NCBI GenBank assembly: GCA_001767195.1
Contig: MEKU01000026.1
Span: 1-48,411, forward strand
Length of the DNA: 48,411 nucleotides
Direction of reading: 5' to 3'
DNA from: Acidobacteria bacterium RIFCSPLOWO2_02_FULL_67_21
GTDB lineage: Bacteria; Acidobacteriota; Vicinamibacteria; Vicinamibacterales; UBA2999
Below the pieces are notes generated by a model. That model made no database searches, was not told the DNA's origin, and was given only the letters and a program-made list of their open reading frames with translations. Positions 37,179 to 46,168 of this stretch are shown here, one piece after another. The first letter of the stretch is position 1. The number at the start of each line of letters is the position of its first letter. A program made the translations under genes and the position numbers.

Positions 37179-37892
37179 TCAGCGCCCTCGCACCCCCGTA
37201 TAGAGATAGACGATGCCGAGCGTCAGCGGGTCTGCGCGAACGGCGCGGAAGCCGGCGCGCGTGAGCATGGCGGCGAATTCGGCGGGGGGCGGGAAGGCGC
37301 CGACCGAGGCCGGCAGATAGGAATAGGCCGCGCGGTGGCCCGAAACCAGCCGGCCGACGAACGGCAGCAGGTATTTGAAGTACGCGAGATACAACGCGCG
37401 GAGCCCCGGCACGCGCGGGACGCCGAACTCGAGAATGGCGAGCCGCGCCCCCGGGCGCATGACGCGCGCGAGCTCGGCGCAGGCCCGGTCCGGCCGTTCG
37501 ACGTTGCGAATGCCGAAGGCGATGGTCGCCGCATCGACCGCGGCATCGGGCACCGGCAGTGCCGTGGCATCGCCGCGCACGAGCGTCACACGGCTCGCCT
37601 CCCGGGCGGCGTTCACCTTCTGCAGCCCGATACGCAGCATCGCGGCGGCAAAGTCCACGCCCACGACGCGCGCTGCTCCCTCGGCCTGCAGCGCGACGTC
37701 CGCGGTGCCGGTACAGACGTCGAGCAGCGTTTCACGTCCCGTCAGCCGGAGGGAACGGATGGCGCGCGCCCGCCATCGGCGATCGATCCCGAGGCTCAGC
37801 GCGTGGTTCAGAAAGTCGTACCGCGGGGCGATCGCGTCGAACATGCCCGCGATGCGGTCGGGGGCCTTGTCGGGACCGGCCTGGTGGGTCAT
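37179..37892 (-). CDS. menG: Demethylmenaquinone methyltransferase
   Basis: The 237-residue SAM methyltransferase performs the last step of menaquinone synthesis. UbiE/MenG signatures: GMFDAIAPRYDFLNHALSLG, LLDVCTGTADVALQAEG (SAM site), AFGIRNVERPDRACAELARV and SGHRAAYSYLPASV. The ATG at 37892 overlaps the stop of the prenyltransferase gene (ATGA). Its position at the end of a run of mqn genes supports menaquinone rather than ubiquinone as product. Confidence 0.93.
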   Translation of the reverse strand: MTHQAGPDKAPDRIAGMFDAIAPRYDFLNHALSLGIDRRWRARAIRSLRLTGRETLLDVCTGTADVALQAEGAARVVGVDFAAAMLRIGLQKVNAAREASRVTLVRGDATALPVPDAAVDAATIAFGIRNVERPDRACAELARVMRPGARLAILEFGVPRVPGLRALYLAYFKYLLPFVGRLVSGHRAAYSYLPASVGAFPPPAEFAAMLTRAGFRAVRADPLTLGIVYLYTGVRGR

Positions 37893-38740
37893 CCAACCAC
37901 GAGCGAGAGTGCGATGGCGGCGAAGTAGACGATCCCGACGTAGCCGTTCAGGTCGAAGGCCCTCTTCACCTGGGAGAGATCGCGCGCGCTGACGAGCGAC
38001 TGTTCGTACGCGAGCAGGCCTGCGACCACGGCCACCCCCCCGAGATACAGCGGCGACAGGTCCGACGCCCCCCAGAGCGCCGCCATGGCCACGATGGTCG
38101 CGACGTGCATCACGCGGGAAAGGCGGATCGCCGCCGGGACGCCGAATCGCACCGGGATCGACCGGAGCCCCTGCGCGCGGTCGACGTCGGCGTCCTGGCA
38201 CGCATACAGAATGTCGAAGCCGCCGACCCAGAGCCCGATGGCAAGGCCGAGCAGCCACGGCTCCATGCCCCCCTCCCCGCCCGCCGCGATCCAGCCGCCG
38301 ACCGGCGCAACCGCCATCGCCAGCCCGAGGAACAACTGCGTGTACGACGTGTAGCGCTTCGCGAGCGAGTACCAGAACACGATGGCGAGCGCCACCGGCG
38401 CGAGCAGGAGGCACAGGACGCTGAGACGTCCGGCCGCAAAGACGAAGAGGACCGAGACGGCCACCACGAACACGATCGCTTCGCGCGTCGACATCGCCCC
38501 CGTGGGCAGCTCGCGCGACGCGGTGCGGGGGTTCAGCGCGTCGAACCGCGCGTCGACGAGCCTGTTGAAACCCATCGCCGCGCTGCGCGCCGACACCATG
38601 CAGACGACAATCCAGACCACCTGCCACCAGGAGAACGGATGCGTGCGCCACGCGAGCAGCGAGCCGGTGAGCGCAAACGGCAGCGCGAACACCGAATGGC
38701 TGAAACGGACGAACGAGAGGTATGTCTGGAGCTTACGCAT
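37889..38740 (-). CDS. mqnP: UbiA-family prenyltransferase (MqnP-like)
   Basis: A 283-residue membrane enzyme with about eight helices. The two Asp-rich prenyl-diphosphate sites are MGFNRLVDARFDALNPRTAS and DILYACQDADVDRAQGLRSI. Annotation pipelines would call this 4-hydroxybenzoate octaprenyltransferase; with mqnA, mqnC and an MqnX-like gene next to it, attaching the isoprenoid tail in the futalosine pathway (MqnP) is the better guess. Coupled to menG by an ATGA overlap. Confidence 0.85.
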   Translation of the reverse strand: MRKLQTYLSFVRFSHSVFALPFALTGSLLAWRTHPFSWWQVVWIVVCMVSARSAAMGFNRLVDARFDALNPRTASRELPTGAMSTREAIVFVVAVSVLFVFAAGRLSVLCLLLAPVALAIVFWYSLAKRYTSYTQLFLGLAMAVAPVGGWIAAGGEGGMEPWLLGLAIGLWVGGFDILYACQDADVDRAQGLRSIPVRFGVPAAIRLSRVMHVATIVAMAALWGASDLSPLYLGGVAVVAGLLAYEQSLVSARDLSQVKRAFDLNGYVGIVYFAAIALSLVVG

Positions 38741-38781: not shown

Positions 38782-39987
38782 TTAGCGATCCAGCCACGTG
38801 ATCGCATCGGGCTGGATTCCGCTGACGAGGTATTCTTCCACATCATCGACGCCCACCGGCACGCGGACGGAGATGAGCGATGCCTCCTTCCCCCCTTCGA
38901 GGGTGCCGAGGCGATCGCCGAAGCCGAGCGCGCGCGCGCCGTGCCAGGTGGCGCTCTCGATCAGGGCGCGCGCCGGCACACGAGGGGCCAGCGCCCTGGC
39001 CCGCGCCAGCTCCTCAAACAGATTCAGATCGTCCACGCTGGCCAGGCTGTCGGTCCCGAAGGCGACCGGCACCCCTGCCCCATAGAACGCGTCGAGCGGA
39101 GGATCGCCGGCACCCACCCAGCGATTGCTGCGGGGGCACGAGACAACCGTCGCGCCCAGCGCCTTCAGGGCGGCCAGATCGTTGCCGGTGCACTGCACCG
39201 CGTGCACGGCCAGGACGCGCGAGTCGAGGAAGCCGAGGGTCGTCAGGTACGCCACAGTCGACAGCCCGGGCGGCTGCCAGCCGTCAGGAAGGACGCCGAG
39301 CTCGCTCAGGAGCTCACGCCACACGCCGGTGCCGGCCTGCAGGAATTCGGTCTCTTCTCTGGACTCGGCCAGGTGCACGCTCGTGACCTCGGACGGGTGG
39401 GCATCCAGGTCCCGGCGAAGCGCCGTAAACAACCCGGGCGCCACCGAGTAGGGCGCGTGTGGCGCCAGGCTCACCCGGACACGGCCTGACCCGTCGCCCA
39501 GCGCGCCGAGCGCCCCACGGGCCGTCCGCACGCAACCGGCCGGATCGTCGGCATTGAAGCCGAGGAGCTCGTAGAACACACGGGCGGAGACGCCCGCCTC
39601 CTCCAGCAGCGTCACGGTGACGAGCGTGTTGCTGATATCCCCCAGCAGTCCCGTACCGCTGGCCTTCGCCTCGCCGAGCGCAGCCCGCGCGGCGCCAAGG
39701 ATCCGTCGATCCTGCGGATCCGGATACTCCCGGCGCGCCGCCATGACGGCGCGAATCCAGTCGACGAACCGGCCGGCGGGAGGAACGCAGCCGCGCAGAT
39801 ACGACAGCTCGAGATGCGTGTGCGCGTTGACGAGGGCGGGAAGGATCGCGGCGTCGCCCAGATCGATCGCATCGGGCTTCGCGCCACGGCCGACGCCGGC
39901 AATCGATCCGCCCTCAACGGCCACCCAGCCGTCGCGCATGGGCGGCGAGGCGATCGGCAGAACCCACGCCGCGCGGAAGACGGTCAT
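38782..39987 (-). CDS. mqnX: Amidohydrolase, aminodeoxyfutalosine deaminase-like
   Basis: A 401-residue amidohydrolase with a mononuclear metal site: ALVNAHTHLELSYLRG (His56, His58), SLAPHAPYSV, SVHLAESREE and AFGTDSLASVDDLN. The family includes S-adenosylhomocysteine/cytosine-type deaminases and 6-amino-6-deoxyfutalosine deaminase. The mqn neighbours favour the last, which removes ammonia before futalosine is split. The ATG at 39987 (MTVFRAAWVLP) is chosen; the longer frame reads only through repeats upstream. Confidence 0.78.
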   Translation of the reverse strand: MTVFRAAWVLPIASPPMRDGWVAVEGGSIAGVGRGAKPDAIDLGDAAILPALVNAHTHLELSYLRGCVPPAGRFVDWIRAVMAARREYPDPQDRRILGAARAALGEAKASGTGLLGDISNTLVTVTLLEEAGVSARVFYELLGFNADDPAGCVRTARGALGALGDGSGRVRVSLAPHAPYSVAPGLFTALRRDLDAHPSEVTSVHLAESREETEFLQAGTGVWRELLSELGVLPDGWQPPGLSTVAYLTTLGFLDSRVLAVHAVQCTGNDLAALKALGATVVSCPRSNRWVGAGDPPLDAFYGAGVPVAFGTDSLASVDDLNLFEELARARALAPRVPARALIESATWHGARALGFGDRLGTLEGGKEASLISVRVPVGVDDVEEYLVSGIQPDAITWLDR

Positions 39988-39993
39988 GTGATC

Positions 39994-40023
39994 ACGAGCC
40001 ACAGAGACACAGAGGCACAGAGT
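39994..40023. repeat. Single-arm 8-bp tandem repeat
   Basis: GCCACAGAGACACAGAGGCA and a further CAGAG form about three copies of CACAGAG(A/G). It matches the left arm of the palindrome at 36054-36130 but has no facing arm here. Confidence 0.65.
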
Positions 40024-40048
40024 TTCGCCAGAAGCGGTTGCATAACCG

Positions 40049-40093
40049 ACGTAGTGCCCGGCTTTAGCCGGGCTGAAGCCCGGCACTACGTAC
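40049..40093. repeat. Family-I double-hairpin repeat
   Basis: ACGTAGTGCCCGGCTTTAGC through GGCACTACGTAC, matching the copy at 8010-8054. It lies in the gap between mqnC and the MqnX-like gene, interrupting an otherwise compact operon. Confidence 0.85.
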
Positions 40094-40112: not shown

Positions 40113-41315
40113 TCAGTGCGCCAACCGCAGCTGCTTGCCGGCGCGGCTGCGAGCCTGGTATCGCTGCAGCTCCTCGGGCAGGGAGGCGTCCCCCTCGGCG
40201 CGGGCCGTGCCGAGCGCGAGCATCCGCGGGAGGTCGCGCTCGCGGAAGATCGGATCGCCCAGGATCTCGTAGTGCATGTTGCGGCGCTTCGGGATGAAGC
40301 CGGCATCCTCGATGTTGGTCACGATCTCCACTTCGTCCATGCAGTAGCTCGCGCCGGCCGCGCGGACGACGTTCTCCTCGATCATGACGCTGCCCATGTC
40401 GTTGGCGCCGTAGGCGAGGCTGAGCTGGCCGACCTTTCCACCCTGCGTCACCCAGGAGGCCTGCAGGTTGTCGAAGTTGTCGAGCACCAGCCGCGCCAGC
40501 GCGAGCGTCCGCAGGTACTCGACGCCGGTAGCCTCGGTTCCCCCGCGCTCGGTGTGCTCCGGCTGATAGCTCCAGGTGATGAACGCCGTGAACCCGCGGG
40601 TTTCGTCCTGCAGATCGCGCAGCCGGAAGAGATGCTCGACCCGCTCCTCATCCGTCTCGACCGACCCGTACATCATCGTCGCCGTCGAGCGGAGCCCGGC
40701 GCGATGGGCCTGGCGCATGACGTCGAGCCATTCGTCGGCCGACGCCTTGCTGTAGCAGTTCAACAGCCGGCGCACGCGGTCGACGAGAATCTCCGCGCCG
40801 CCGCCGGGGATGCTGTCGAGGCCCGCGGCGACCAGGCGTGCAATGACATCGGGAACCGGAATGCGATTGATCCGCGAGATGTGCAGCACCTCAGGCGGAG
40901 ACAGCGCGTGAAGCCTGAACGCGGGATAGCGCGCCTTGACGGCCCGGAAGAGATCCTCGTACCAGTCAATCGGCAGGTCCGGGTTGTGGCCGCCCTGCAG
41001 CAGCAGCTGATTGCCCCCGACCGCAACGGTGTCATCGATCTTGCGGAAGATCTCCTCGAAGCCGAGCACATAGCCCTCGGCGGAGCCGACCGGGCGGTAG
41101 AACGCGCAGAAATTGCACCGCGCGAGGCACACGTTCGTGTAGTTCACGTTGCGATCGATGATGTAGGTGACGATCCGGCCCGGATGTTTGCGCGCGCGGA
41201 TGGCGTCGGCCGCCCGCCCGAGCGCGAGAGTGGGCGCCTGACGATAGAGCGCGAGCGCCTGCTCGCGCGTGATCCGCGCGTCGTCGGCCGCCCGGGCGAT
41301 GAGCCGTTCCACCAT
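40113..41315 (-). CDS. mqnC: Cyclic dehypoxanthinyl futalosine synthase (radical SAM)
   Basis: The 400-residue radical-SAM enzyme cyclises dehypoxanthinyl futalosine. The cluster motif is CLARCNFC (Cys63, Cys67, Cys70) within DRNVNYTNVCLARCNFCAFY. MqnC-type stretches are GGNQLLLQGGHNPDLPIDWY, SIPGGGAEILVDRVRR, TATMMYGSVETDEERVEHLF and GANDMGSVMIEENVVRAAG. It abuts mqnA, ending transcriptionally coupled genes before the repeat at 40049. Confidence 0.94.
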   Translation of the reverse strand: MVERLIARAADDARITREQALALYRQAPTLALGRAADAIRARKHPGRIVTYIIDRNVNYTNVCLARCNFCAFYRPVGSAEGYVLGFEEIFRKIDDTVAVGGNQLLLQGGHNPDLPIDWYEDLFRAVKARYPAFRLHALSPPEVLHISRINRIPVPDVIARLVAAGLDSIPGGGAEILVDRVRRLLNCYSKASADEWLDVMRQAHRAGLRSTATMMYGSVETDEERVEHLFRLRDLQDETRGFTAFITWSYQPEHTERGGTEATGVEYLRTLALARLVLDNFDNLQASWVTQGGKVGQLSLAYGANDMGSVMIEENVVRAAGASYCMDEVEIVTNIEDAGFIPKRRNMHYEILGDPIFRERDLPRMLALGTARAEGDASLPEELQRYQARSRAGKQLRLAH

Positions 41316-42106
41316 CAGAAGAATTCCAGGCCGCGCCGGCGCGGCGCCGCACCGATCTCCACGGCGTAGTCGAGGAAAGTCTGCAGTCCCGCCGCCTCTT
41401 CGGGACCGAGGCCGTACCGGACATTATGGCGTAGATAGACCGCGGCCCGCGCCGTCGCCGCCGGATCGCCGGCGCCGTATTCCTCGGCGATCGCGTCGGT
41501 CGACGCGGTGCCTTCGACCTGCGCCGCCTGCAGCGCCGCCACATCCCCGTCGTCCACGGCGCCGGGACGTCCGGCCCAGGCAGCGTAGATGAAGGGCAGC
41601 CCGGTCATCGCCGTCCATTCCTCACCGAGGTCCACCTTCTGAGCGCCGAGTGCCGCATGGTCGGCGTCCAGCGCCGGATCGCCAATCAGCAGCGCGGCGT
41701 CGAACCCGCGCAGCATGGCCTGCAGATCGGGCCCGTGCGGCACCAGCTCGGGCGCGATCCGGAACCGGTGGCGGCACAGCACCTTCAGCAGGGCGACCGA
41801 CGTCCGCGAGCTGGTGTCGGCCGCAATCCGCCGAATCGACGCGACCGGGACGCGCGAAAAGAGCGCGACGGAGGCCACCGGACCGCGCGACCCGACCCCG
41901 ACGCCGGGGACGAACCGGTAATCCGAGGCGCTCAGGTACTCGATCGAGGGGATCAGCCCGAGGTCCACCTCTCCGGCGTGCAGCAGCGCGGCGCACACCG
42001 ATGGCACGTCGTACCGGATCTGCCAGCGTTCGGGAGCGCGGTCGAGCGCCCACGTCAGCGGCCGGGCGTTCAGATAGCCGACCGCGCCCAACCGGACGGG
42101 GTTCAC
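41315..42106 (-). CDS. mqnA: Chorismate dehydratase MqnA
   Basis: The 263-residue periplasmic-binding-like enzyme converts chorismate to 3-[(1-carboxyvinyl)oxy]benzoate, the first step of the futalosine pathway. Family motifs: VRLGAVGYLNARPLTWALD, GEVDLGLIPSIEYL, ADTSSRTSVALLKVLC and DLGEEWTAMTGLPFIYAAWA. The GTG at 42106 is chosen because the preceding in-frame codons (MLAALGVGS) derive from the tandem palindrome; the repeat's GGGAG could serve as ribosome-binding site. The stop overlaps the mqnC start by one base. Confidence 0.92.
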   Translation of the reverse strand: MNPVRLGAVGYLNARPLTWALDRAPERWQIRYDVPSVCAALLHAGEVDLGLIPSIEYLSASDYRFVPGVGVGSRGPVASVALFSRVPVASIRRIAADTSSRTSVALLKVLCRHRFRIAPELVPHGPDLQAMLRGFDAALLIGDPALDADHAALGAQKVDLGEEWTAMTGLPFIYAAWAGRPGAVDDGDVAALQAAQVEGTASTDAIAEEYGAGDPAATARAAVYLRHNVRYGLGPEEAAGLQTFLDYAVEIGAAPRRRGLEFF

Positions 42107-42173
42107 ACTCCCAACTCCCAAAGCGGCCAACACCCACCGTTGGAAGTTGGGAAGCTGGGAGTTGGCAGTTGGC
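42105..42173. repeat. Palindromic 7-bp minisatellite
   Basis: The left arm has ACTCCCA units and CCAACACCCACC; the right arm (42140-42173) has TTGGGAAG, CTGGGAG and TTGGCAG units that pair with it. It lies between the MqnE-like gene and mqnA, and its left edge provides the sequence just before the mqnA start. Confidence 0.8.
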
Positions 42174-43070
42174 TCATATCACGTTGAAGCGCCCGTCGCG
42201 CTCGGCGGGCGAGAGCGCCGCCGCCTCGATGTTGCGGCGGACCTCCTGCACGGGCGCGCGCCTGTGGCCGTCAGGCGCGGCGTCGGAAGCGGTCACGTTG
42301 TCGAGATCGTCGGCGCCAAAGGTCAGCGCCACCTGCGCCAGCTTCGGCCCATAGCGCAGCCAGTCGACCTGAATGGTGGGAATGTTGGGCGCGGCCAGCC
42401 GGGCCAGCGCGACGGCCTTTACGTCCTCGTATCCGGTCGTCGGCCGCGCGGACGTCACGACCGTGGGGAGAGGGTTCAGCACGTGGATACCGCCGGCCCG
42501 GTCCTGAGCCGCCGCGGCGCGCAGCAGCAGCGCCGTTCGCTCGGCGGGGGGCGCCTGCGCGCAGGTCAGCCGCAGGCGCTCGAAGCCGGTCTCCGCCAGC
42601 ACCGCGACCACGGCGTCCAGGTCGGTCACGCCATCGATCGGCACTTCGGCGAGCGCGTCGAGCCCCGCAGCGCGCAATTCCCGCAGCGCGTCCGGCAGTG
42701 CCGTGCGGCCCCGTGCGGCCAGCGCCTCCACGTCCGGCCAGGAGAAGCCCGACACCGTCCGCTCGCCGGCAATCGCCCTCGCGCTGCGCACGGCGGCGAC
42801 GGCGACGGCCAGCGTGCCGGGCGCGCCGCCGATCCGAATCTCGCGCGCCGCCGGCGGCACGCACTCGGCAAACGACGCGTCGAAGGCGCAGCCGGCGACG
42901 CGCAGGTAGGTCACGCGGGTACCGTGCAGCCGCCGTCGGACGGTGTCGGCCATCATGCCGAGCGCCAGGATGTCGGGCGTGGCCGCGAGATCCGCGATCT
43001 CGGCGGCCGAGAGCCGCTCGCCGGCGCCGACCCGCTCGAGCAGGCGATCGAGAGCGGGTGCCATCTCCAT
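42174..43070 (-). CDS. MqnE-like protein lacking the radical-SAM cysteine motif
   Basis: The 298-residue protein aligns by eye with aminofutalosine synthase MqnE at both ends: N-terminal LGMMADTVRRRLHGTRVTYL and C-terminal IPTIQVDWLRYGPKLAQVAL, FGADDLDNVTASDAA and RRAPVQEVRRNIEAA. Where MqnE has the CX3CX2C 4Fe-4S motif, this protein has only RVAGCAFDASFAECV (Cys61, Cys70), and the chain is about 70 residues shorter than usual. The reading frame is unbroken with normal codon use, so a frameshift is unlikely. It is probably a pseudoenzyme or a partner subunit. A true MqnE would be needed elsewhere. Confidence 0.7.
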   Translation of the reverse strand: MEMAPALDRLLERVGAGERLSAAEIADLAATPDILALGMMADTVRRRLHGTRVTYLRVAGCAFDASFAECVPPAAREIRIGGAPGTLAVAVAAVRSARAIAGERTVSGFSWPDVEALAARGRTALPDALRELRAAGLDALAEVPIDGVTDLDAVVAVLAETGFERLRLTCAQAPPAERTALLLRAAAAQDRAGGIHVLNPLPTVVTSARPTTGYEDVKAVALARLAAPNIPTIQVDWLRYGPKLAQVALTFGADDLDNVTASDAAPDGHRRAPVQEVRRNIEAAALSPAERDGRFNVI

Positions 43071-44896: not shown

Positions 44897-46168
44897 TCAT
44901 TCATCTGCCACCAGCTCCTCGGTGCGCCGGCTCGGCCGGCGCAGAATCACACCGCGCTGGGACGTGCGGATGAAGTCCACGAGATAGCGGACCTCGGGCG
45001 ACGCCAGGCTCGCATCCCGCTCGATCTGCACGAGCGCGCGCGACGTGTTCAGCTTCGACTGGAGCAGATACCGGTACGCGCGCTTGAGCTGGCTGATGGT
45101 GTCGGCGGTGAAGCCCCGCCTCGCCAGGCCGATCGTGTTCAGCCCGTACATCCGCGCGCGGTTGCCCACCGACTTACCGAACGGCAGCGCGTCCTTCGTA
45201 ATCACCGAGTAGCCGCCCACGTACGCGTGGCGGCCGACGCGGCAGAACTGATGTACGCCCGAATAGGCGCTGACGGTGGCGAAGTCCTCCACGTCCACGT
45301 GGCCGCCCAGCGTCGCGCCGTTGCCGAAGATGGTGTGATGGCCGATGTGGCAGTCGTGGGCCACGTGCACGTACGCCATGAACAGGTTGTGGTCGCCGAT
45401 GGTGGTCTGCCCGCCGCCGCCGAGCGTGCCGCGGTTGATGGTCACGAATTCGCGGAAGGTGTTGCCGCGGCCGATGGTGAGCCTGGTCCGCTCGCCCTTG
45501 TACTTGAGATCCTGCGGGGCCAGACCGATCGACGCCATCGGGTAGATCCGTGTGTCGTCGCCGATCTCGGTCCAGCCGTCGATCACGACCGAGGCGCCGA
45601 TCTGACAGCGGGCCCCGATCGCGACCTCCGGGCCGATCTGGCAGTGCGGGCCGATGGTCGCGGCGGCGCCGACCCGGGCCGACGGATGCACGTGCGCGGT
45701 CGGATCGATATACGCCGCGCCGGGATCGATGGCGAGCAGCAGGTCCGCCTCGGCGACCATCTGCTCGTCCACGTGTGCGATCGCGCGCGCCCGCGCCAGC
45801 CGCGACCGGGTGCGCCCGAGCGCCACTTCCAGCCGGAGTCGATCGCCGGGCACGACCTGCCGCCGGAACTTGGCGTTGTCGACCCCCCGGAGCCAGACGC
45901 GGGCGGTTCCAGGCGCGTCCGACCGCTCGAGCAGCAGCACGGCGGCCACCTGCGTCAGCGCCTCGATCATCAGCACCCCGGGCATCAGCGGCGAGCCGGG
46001 AAAGTGCCCCTGGAAGAACTCTTCGTTGACCGTCACGTTCTTGACCGCCACGAGCCGGACGCCGGGATCGTGCTCGGCGACCGTATCGATCAGGAACGAG
46101 GGATAACGATAGAAGACGCGGTCGAGGAGGGCGGGGAGGTCTATCGCCACAGAGAACCTGTCGTTCAC
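44897..46168 (-). CDS. FabZ-LpxA fusion (acyl-ACP dehydratase / UDP-GlcNAc acyltransferase)
   Basis: One 423-residue frame joins two enzymes. Residues 1-150 are FabZ: FYRYPSFLIDTVAEHDPG, NEEFFQGHFPGSPLMPGVLM with catalytic His55 and Glu69. Residues 151-423 are LpxA: left-handed beta-helix hexapeptides from AYIDPTAHVHPSARVG on, catalytic His271 in YVHVAHDCHIG, GATLGGHVDVEDFA and VHQFCRVGRHAYVGG, then a helical C-terminus. LpxA adds the 3-O acyl chain to UDP-GlcNAc. The start is GTG at 46168. Separate but adjacent fabZ and lpxA genes are the norm. Confidence 0.93.
   Translation of the reverse strand: MNDRFSVAIDLPALLDRVFYRYPSFLIDTVAEHDPGVRLVAVKNVTVNEEFFQGHFPGSPLMPGVLMIEALTQVAAVLLLERSDAPGTARVWLRGVDNAKFRRQVVPGDRLRLEVALGRTRSRLARARAIAHVDEQMVAEADLLLAIDPGAAYIDPTAHVHPSARVGAAATIGPHCQIGPEVAIGARCQIGASVVIDGWTEIGDDTRIYPMASIGLAPQDLKYKGERTRLTIGRGNTFREFVTINRGTLGGGGQTTIGDHNLFMAYVHVAHDCHIGHHTIFGNGATLGGHVDVEDFATVSAYSGVHQFCRVGRHAYVGGYSVITKDALPFGKSVGNRARMYGLNTIGLARRGFTADTISQLKRAYRYLLQSKLNTSRALVQIERDASLASPEVRYLVDFIRTSQRGVILRRPSRRTEELVADE

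Follow-up and report, generated by a model that had tools for sequence, protein, structure and literature searches.

Two radical-SAM enzymes of the futalosine pathway to menaquinone (vitamin K2), MqnE (aminodeoxyfutalosine synthase, NCBIfam model TIGR03700) and MqnC (cyclic dehypoxanthinyl futalosine synthase, TIGR03699), are the closest described relatives of the protein reported here. Both carry the cluster motif CX3CX2C; MqnE also has the full set of loops on the SAM side of its barrel, and MqnC is ∼350–400 residues long. Radical-SAM enzymes are usually deemed useless without their cluster, and relatives that lack it are dismissed as decay or error. Two other systems offer models of how such a relative might work. 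PDX1.2 of plants is a non-catalytic TIM-barrel protein, and its hetero-oligomerisation with PDX1 is established. Titles cited in PMC5897740 pair PDX1.2 with PDX1, the vitamin B6 synthase, and, as far as titles go, suggest that a barrel paralogue without catalytic activity helps to sustain synthesis of the cofactor. In Dph1–Dph2, two homologous subunits act as one non-canonical radical-SAM enzyme (PMC11048331). For the phylum considered here, a 2014 survey that leaves MqnE unmentioned counted mqnA, mqnC and mqnD in five Acidobacteria (PMC3914697). We found no description of a cluster-less MqnE or MqnC in the open literature, a coverage that takes in few subscription papers.

The window analysed here is a stretch of 48,411 nucleotides, contig MEKU01000026.1 of Acidobacteria bacterium RIFCSPLOWO2_02_FULL_67_21 (order Vicinamibacterales), from a draft genome (G000) of 107 contigs and 4.19 Mb that is 99.5% complete. 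It encodes a cluster-less MqnE/MqnC-family protein of 298 residues (42174–43070, minus strand), and such a relative is fixed in the menaquinone operon of the entire order, beside intact MqnE and MqnC. It resembles MqnE in its predicted fold as a whole, in the sequence of its N- and C-terminal parts and in its operon slot upstream of mqnA, but it lacks the motif and the full SAM-side loops, and a canonical MqnE coexists with it. To MqnC it is likened by its CofH_C region, by the signatures G-x-K..Q and TTG/ATG and by a near-equal model score, although it is the shorter protein, lacks the motif and is encoded two genes upstream of a functional-looking MqnC. PDX1.2 is a parallel in mode of action from an unrelated barrel family, with a known hetero-oligomer where ours is proposed. 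Dph1–Dph2 would be a model for a pairing of our protein with MqnC as homologous subunits, with the difference that both Dph subunits bind Fe-S clusters whereas our protein has no conserved cysteine.

Sequence and predicted fold of the cluster-less protein

The initial annotation of this DNA had described an intact frame without CX3CX2C, and this description holds for the protein and extends to 110 orthologues, all of which lack the motif. Pfam recognises only CofH_C (the CofH/MqnC C-terminal region, PF19288; 34.5 bits, E 2e-8, above the gathering threshold of 27 bits), which 29 of 30 orthologues match at E up to 0.01, and finds no Radical_SAM domain in the protein. The MqnE model TIGR03700 reaches 78.2 bits against a cut-off of 434.55, in two stretches, one covering the N-terminal ∼45 positions and the other positions 217–351, in keeping with the earlier statement that both ends match MqnE. 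The MqnC model TIGR03699 is nearly tied at 75.2 bits against 428.1. By the tests that define the two families the protein is a member of neither, and it is a conserved variant within the branch that they form.

In an alignment with a close MqnE, 68 residues of the enzyme have no counterpart. About 70 missing residues had been noted earlier, a figure that is right as a sum but not as a single gap, since the losses are spread over every SAM-side loop: 28 residues with the cluster loop are missing after residue 61, and then 3, 3, 4, 8, 4, 5 and 5, with five residues absent at the C-terminus. Alignment with canonical MqnE and MqnC places the main excision point between residues 61 and 62 (42887–42888, minus strand). 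The SAM-side loops that read GGxNPD, PGGGAE and TMLYGH in the enzymes are shortened and non-conserved. Judged from these alignments, trimming has affected the SAM side as a whole and is not confined to the cysteines.

An AF2 model of the protein (pLDDT 94.4, pTM 0.91) has MqnE as its best match in the PDB (6xi9/6xig; Z 28.9, 292 residues, rmsd 2.8 Å, 21% identity). BioB, PylB, ThiH, HydG and HydE follow at Z about 18–20, the next family after MqnE having 20.0, and Foldseek places four MqnE chains in the top ranks. The model retains the TIM-barrel radical-SAM fold and not the unrelated fold that the initial annotation had named as grounds for dropping the case. Because the cluster-binding residues and SAM-side loops are lost, radical-SAM chemistry should be absent, and aminodeoxyfutalosine synthase activity would have gone with the cluster.

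Operon context and the canonical pathway enzymes

The gene lies in an operon-like run on the minus strand, preceded by skp, an lpxA/fabZ fusion, lpxI and gfo and followed by mqnA, mqnC, a deaminase gene, ubiA and ubiE. Its ATG comes directly after the stop codon of the upstream Gfo/Idh gene. Directly downstream is mqnA, encoding chorismate dehydratase (41315–42133; PF02621, 177 bits), and its stop is overlapped by the start of mqnC (40113–41315; 487.5 bits on TIGR03699, over the cut-off of 428.1; CX3CX2C present). Both genes are intact, as they had earlier appeared to be. There follow, all on the same strand, an amidohydrolase that is a probable aminofutalosine deaminase (38782–40086, start codon uncertain; PF01979; 139.8 bits on NF006269, below the cut-off of 320), a UbiA-type, MqnP-like prenyltransferase (37889–38740; PF01040; MqnP models 213–287 bits, below their cut-offs) and a UbiE/MqnG-like methyltransferase (37179–37892, start approximate), assigned from the sequence of the open reading frame 37179–38651 in which it lies and as the conserved last gene of the operon.

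The lipid A block adjoins the mqn block in most loci examined. In the window, at 44897–46168, lpxA is apparently fused to a FabZ-like dehydratase domain, and lpxI and the Gfo/Idh dehydrogenase gene come next; we take the latter enzyme to be GnnA-like, hinting at a lipid A with amide-linked sugars. In the spacer between our gene and mqnA (42105–42173) a short, repetitive sequence resembling AACTCCCAACT occurs together with its inverse, and this stretch apparently extends as far as the start region of mqnA. Gene fusion was considered as a clue to a partner, and no fusion was seen: the long open frames upstream run across the Gfo gene in a different reading frame.

The gene opens the mqn part, immediately behind the lipid A genes, and its product could be a ligand-sensing regulator, which would bind an intermediate and tune MqnA/MqnC, or couple the upstream lipid A operon to menaquinone supply. 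A barrel and conserved face kept without a catalytic cluster would suit such a role. We regard it as distinctly improbable, since neither a DNA-binding nor a signalling domain is present in the protein, and in two genomes (loci L095 and L086) the lipid A genes are 1.5–2.9 kb away, yet the cluster-less gene stays with mqnA.

A search of the genome located a canonical MqnE elsewhere (G000:C39:19300–20256), with 446 bits over the cut-off of 434.55 and CX3CX2C intact; the motif is likewise present in 20 of 20 canonical MqnEs fetched from relatives. The initial annotation had offered two possibilities, another MqnE or a different route to aminodeoxyfutalosine, and the first is what was found. With a canonical MqnE elsewhere and the motif kept in MqnC, no other chemical route is needed, and the radical steps of the pathway would be done by these separate canonical enzymes. 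Near its end, mqnE meets a short N gap (L001, G000:C39:17800–21756), and the open frame continues into nadA (quinolinate synthase); this read-through probably arose in assembly and does not reflect a true fusion. The two genes are neighbours. An MqnD-like protein is encoded on contig C89 (251 bits on PF02621). No MenB scored over its cut-off in 14 genomes, hence there is no sign of the classical pathway.

The genome encodes no MqnB, the PF01048 domain occurring there only in PNP and MTA phosphorylase, and among 40 relatives MqnB exceeds its cut-off in 11. The deaminase-type gene implies a futalosine intermediate despite the missing MqnB here and in most relatives, and PNP or MTA phosphorylase may replace it. 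This bears on the main rival to the reading that we prefer, namely that the cluster-less protein is a re-tooled non-radical enzyme acting on a pathway intermediate, for example in (amino)futalosine cleavage where MqnB is missing. The many invariant charged and aromatic residues of its C-terminal half do resemble a ligand site. Nine genomes (G001, G005, G006, G010, G012, G014, G016, G024 and G031), however, have MqnB and the cluster-less gene together, so the latter is no simple MqnB replacement; the step could be performed by either phosphorylase, and neither a hydrolase motif nor a metal site was recognised in the protein. On these grounds we consider a re-tooled enzyme unlikely. Replacement of MqnB as such was rejected, the presence patterns of the two genes being unmatched.

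Conservation across the order and the MqnC tail

Orthologues were found in 34 of 40 relatives and in 13 of the order's 14 families; in a few cases the end of a contig interrupts the gene. They are present in all 34 relatives with MqnC and in none of the six without it, a co-occurrence confounded by the adjacency of the two genes, in which joint absence may reflect a missing contig. Among 149 genomes sampled across the phylum, full-length orthologues are confined to the order, where 14 of 14 have one. A scan of a larger genome collection returned 238 loci encoding a relative, mostly from records labelled Acidobacteria, Vicinamibacteria or Vicinamibacterales; the few from other groups are probably mislabelled bins. 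Of the best 80 of these 238 loci, all 80 lack CX3CX2C, 78 have mqnA adjoining on the same strand and 72 have mqnC. The MqnC motif is intact in 71 of those 72, and the exception has an X at one cysteine.

Since 110 aligned orthologues have the same cluster-less state, chance is excluded. The identical excision in these sequences from independent assemblies, along with the orthologues in two single-contig genomes (G026 and G038), also refutes a sequencing or assembly error that hides the motif, in spite of the draft status of our genome and the assembly gap at its canonical MqnE; such an error had been named beforehand as what would overturn the case. The initial annotation had proposed a check of pseudo-active-site conservation across relatives: the motif is lost in all aligned relatives and the C-terminal half is strongly conserved. 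About fifty positions are at least 90% conserved over the 110 sequences, and the majority lie within residues 200–291 (42198–42473, minus strand), where the columns at that level read PL...P.TGY.D...A.ARL...IQVDW..YGPKLAQVALTFGADD.D.V....G.RR.....RN..AA......R; residues 191–260 are the best conserved stretch. There is no conserved cysteine column, cysteine never exceeding 15% of any column in these sequences. An alternative cluster from other cysteines was thereby ruled out.

For two same-genus pairs dN/dS is about 0.25 and 0.31, and by this measure the gene is under purifying selection. No internal stop occurs in any match found within the order. It could still be argued that a decaying copy persists only by accident or because its translation is coupled to that of mqnA, given that no enzyme is needed from it where a canonical MqnE is present and that it evolves faster than its neighbours (mean identity 43% against 77% for MqnC in 13 operons). 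We strongly disfavour decay, because the frame is uninterrupted and kept in all operon-bearing genomes sampled, as well as in 80 of the best 80 of 238 scanned loci, at dN/dS values as low as these and with near-invariant residues over 110 sequences. The same fast evolution exceeds what would be expected of a tightly docked subunit and counts against the subunit reading as well.

The best explanation, and on balance a probable one, is that selection retains a cluster-less barrel of the MqnE/MqnC/CofH branch to serve the futalosine pathway as a non-catalytic accessory subunit. A regulatory or scaffold subunit had been suggested earlier; its fixed position in the operon, its joint occurrence with MqnC, the missing SAM side and the strong conservation of the remainder all agree with the suggestion, and the interaction itself we infer. 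Going by sequence features, the most likely partner would be MqnC. The MqnC of the order has a conserved C-terminal tail (residues 353–400; 40116–40259, minus strand) of ∼48 residues after the family core, with the consensus GDPxFRERxVPRMLELATARxxGDxSVPxELxxYPARSRAGK... It is present in 78 of 78 complete MqnCs from partner-bearing loci, and up to residue 390 its conservation is 0.77, against 0.86 for the core. The 25 MqnCs sampled elsewhere in the phylum, which have no such partner, carry 0–25 unrelated residues in its place (0/25 with the tail), and the tail of the sister order's MqnC is short and different. Tail and partner mark one clade, so this is one evolutionary coincidence or event and not 78. 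The tail would look like an expected docking segment; in an AF2 model of MqnC made without the partner its pLDDT is middling, at about 72–81.

A subunit of this kind could form a hetero-complex with MqnC, possibly through the order-specific tail, and/or with MqnA. It might stabilise an oxygen-sensitive enzyme, or hold and pass on an intermediate by way of its conserved C-terminal face, which would comprise D216, R224, D236-W237, K243, Q246, D255, D257, R270-R271 and R279. If the protein is a subunit, a pathway discussed as a drug target in other bacteria has an unrecognised component, and one that annotation pipelines will keep missing. The gene also provides a clean case for studying how the barrel of a radical enzyme is reused after the loss of its chemistry.

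Six relatives (G008, G013, G015, G019, G023 and G034) are missing both mqnC and the cluster-less gene. Four of them have a single PF02621 protein scoring like MqnD and two have none; one of the six, G015, is 98% complete, and partial pathway loss may therefore be real rather than the result of assembly gaps.

Place in the mqnE slot, possible origin and a parallel in family f22

The order mqnE-mqnA-mqnC, with a motif-bearing MqnE, is found in the sister order (G096, family f15) and in families f20, f25, f26, f37, f38 and f62, with a wider gap in f20; in f49 and f51 mqnE and mqnC are neighbours with no mqnA seen between them. By this gene order the cluster-less gene occupies the mqnE slot. In trees, the canonical MqnE of our order clusters, with weak support, with its operonic counterparts in f15 and f25; vertical inheritance is thus probable for it, although its gene is now found away from the operon. 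MqnC likewise clusters with that of f15 and f25, again with weak support. The cluster-less sequences form a single clade, whose long branch falls outside MqnE as well as MqnC. The AU test rejects descent from neither (p=0.23 for a position within or with MqnE and 0.35 as sister to the order's MqnE; 0.64 within or with MqnC and 0.098 as sister to the order's MqnC). An MqnE origin is favoured by the fold and by the slot in the operon, which speak for the label of MqnE homologue in the initial annotation; the retained C-terminal signatures G-x-K..Q and A/T-T-G (TTG/ATG) look more MqnC-like, and the AU result is compatible with either parent. The most likely course of events would be that the canonical mqnE of this order ended up away from the operon, that a copy remaining in the mqnE slot, or placed there by insertion, lost the cluster and kept the other half of the barrel, and that selection keeps this copy as an accessory futalosine-pathway subunit.

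Family f22 of the same phylum provides an independent case of a copy that was retained after losing its cluster, with a second homologue present beside it. There the cluster loop has been cut from the MqnC orthologue in 7 of 15 sampled genomes, leaving proteins of 302–317 residues (L079:3219–4124, L080:1652–2596, L081:2957–3895, and L212–L215). All seven genomes have an additional, divergent MqnC-like gene with CX3CX2C intact (L257–L263), which scores 300–317 bits on TIGR03699 and has MqnC as best match for the two that were scanned. No such extra gene was found in G091, G150, G071 and G046, all with a canonical MqnC; in four other genomes the canonical MqnC is accompanied by an additional homologue whose score falls in a different class.

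The likeness to our locus is that the cluster loop was excised in a copy that was kept while a motif-bearing homologue is present too. The f22 protein differs in that it arose independently within MqnC and partly keeps its SAM-side loops, and its location outside any mqn operon counts against the parallel. Taking the two cases together, we tentatively raise a stronger proposal, with the chances rather against it: the MqnC of our order would be an obligate hetero-complex, with the cluster-less barrel docked on the new tail and binding substrate or product, and a course of displacing a copy, stripping its cluster and keeping it as a partner would have been taken at least twice in acidobacterial menaquinone synthesis. 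The f22 gene adjoins a glycosyltransferase gene, and its surroundings are partly conserved among genomes.
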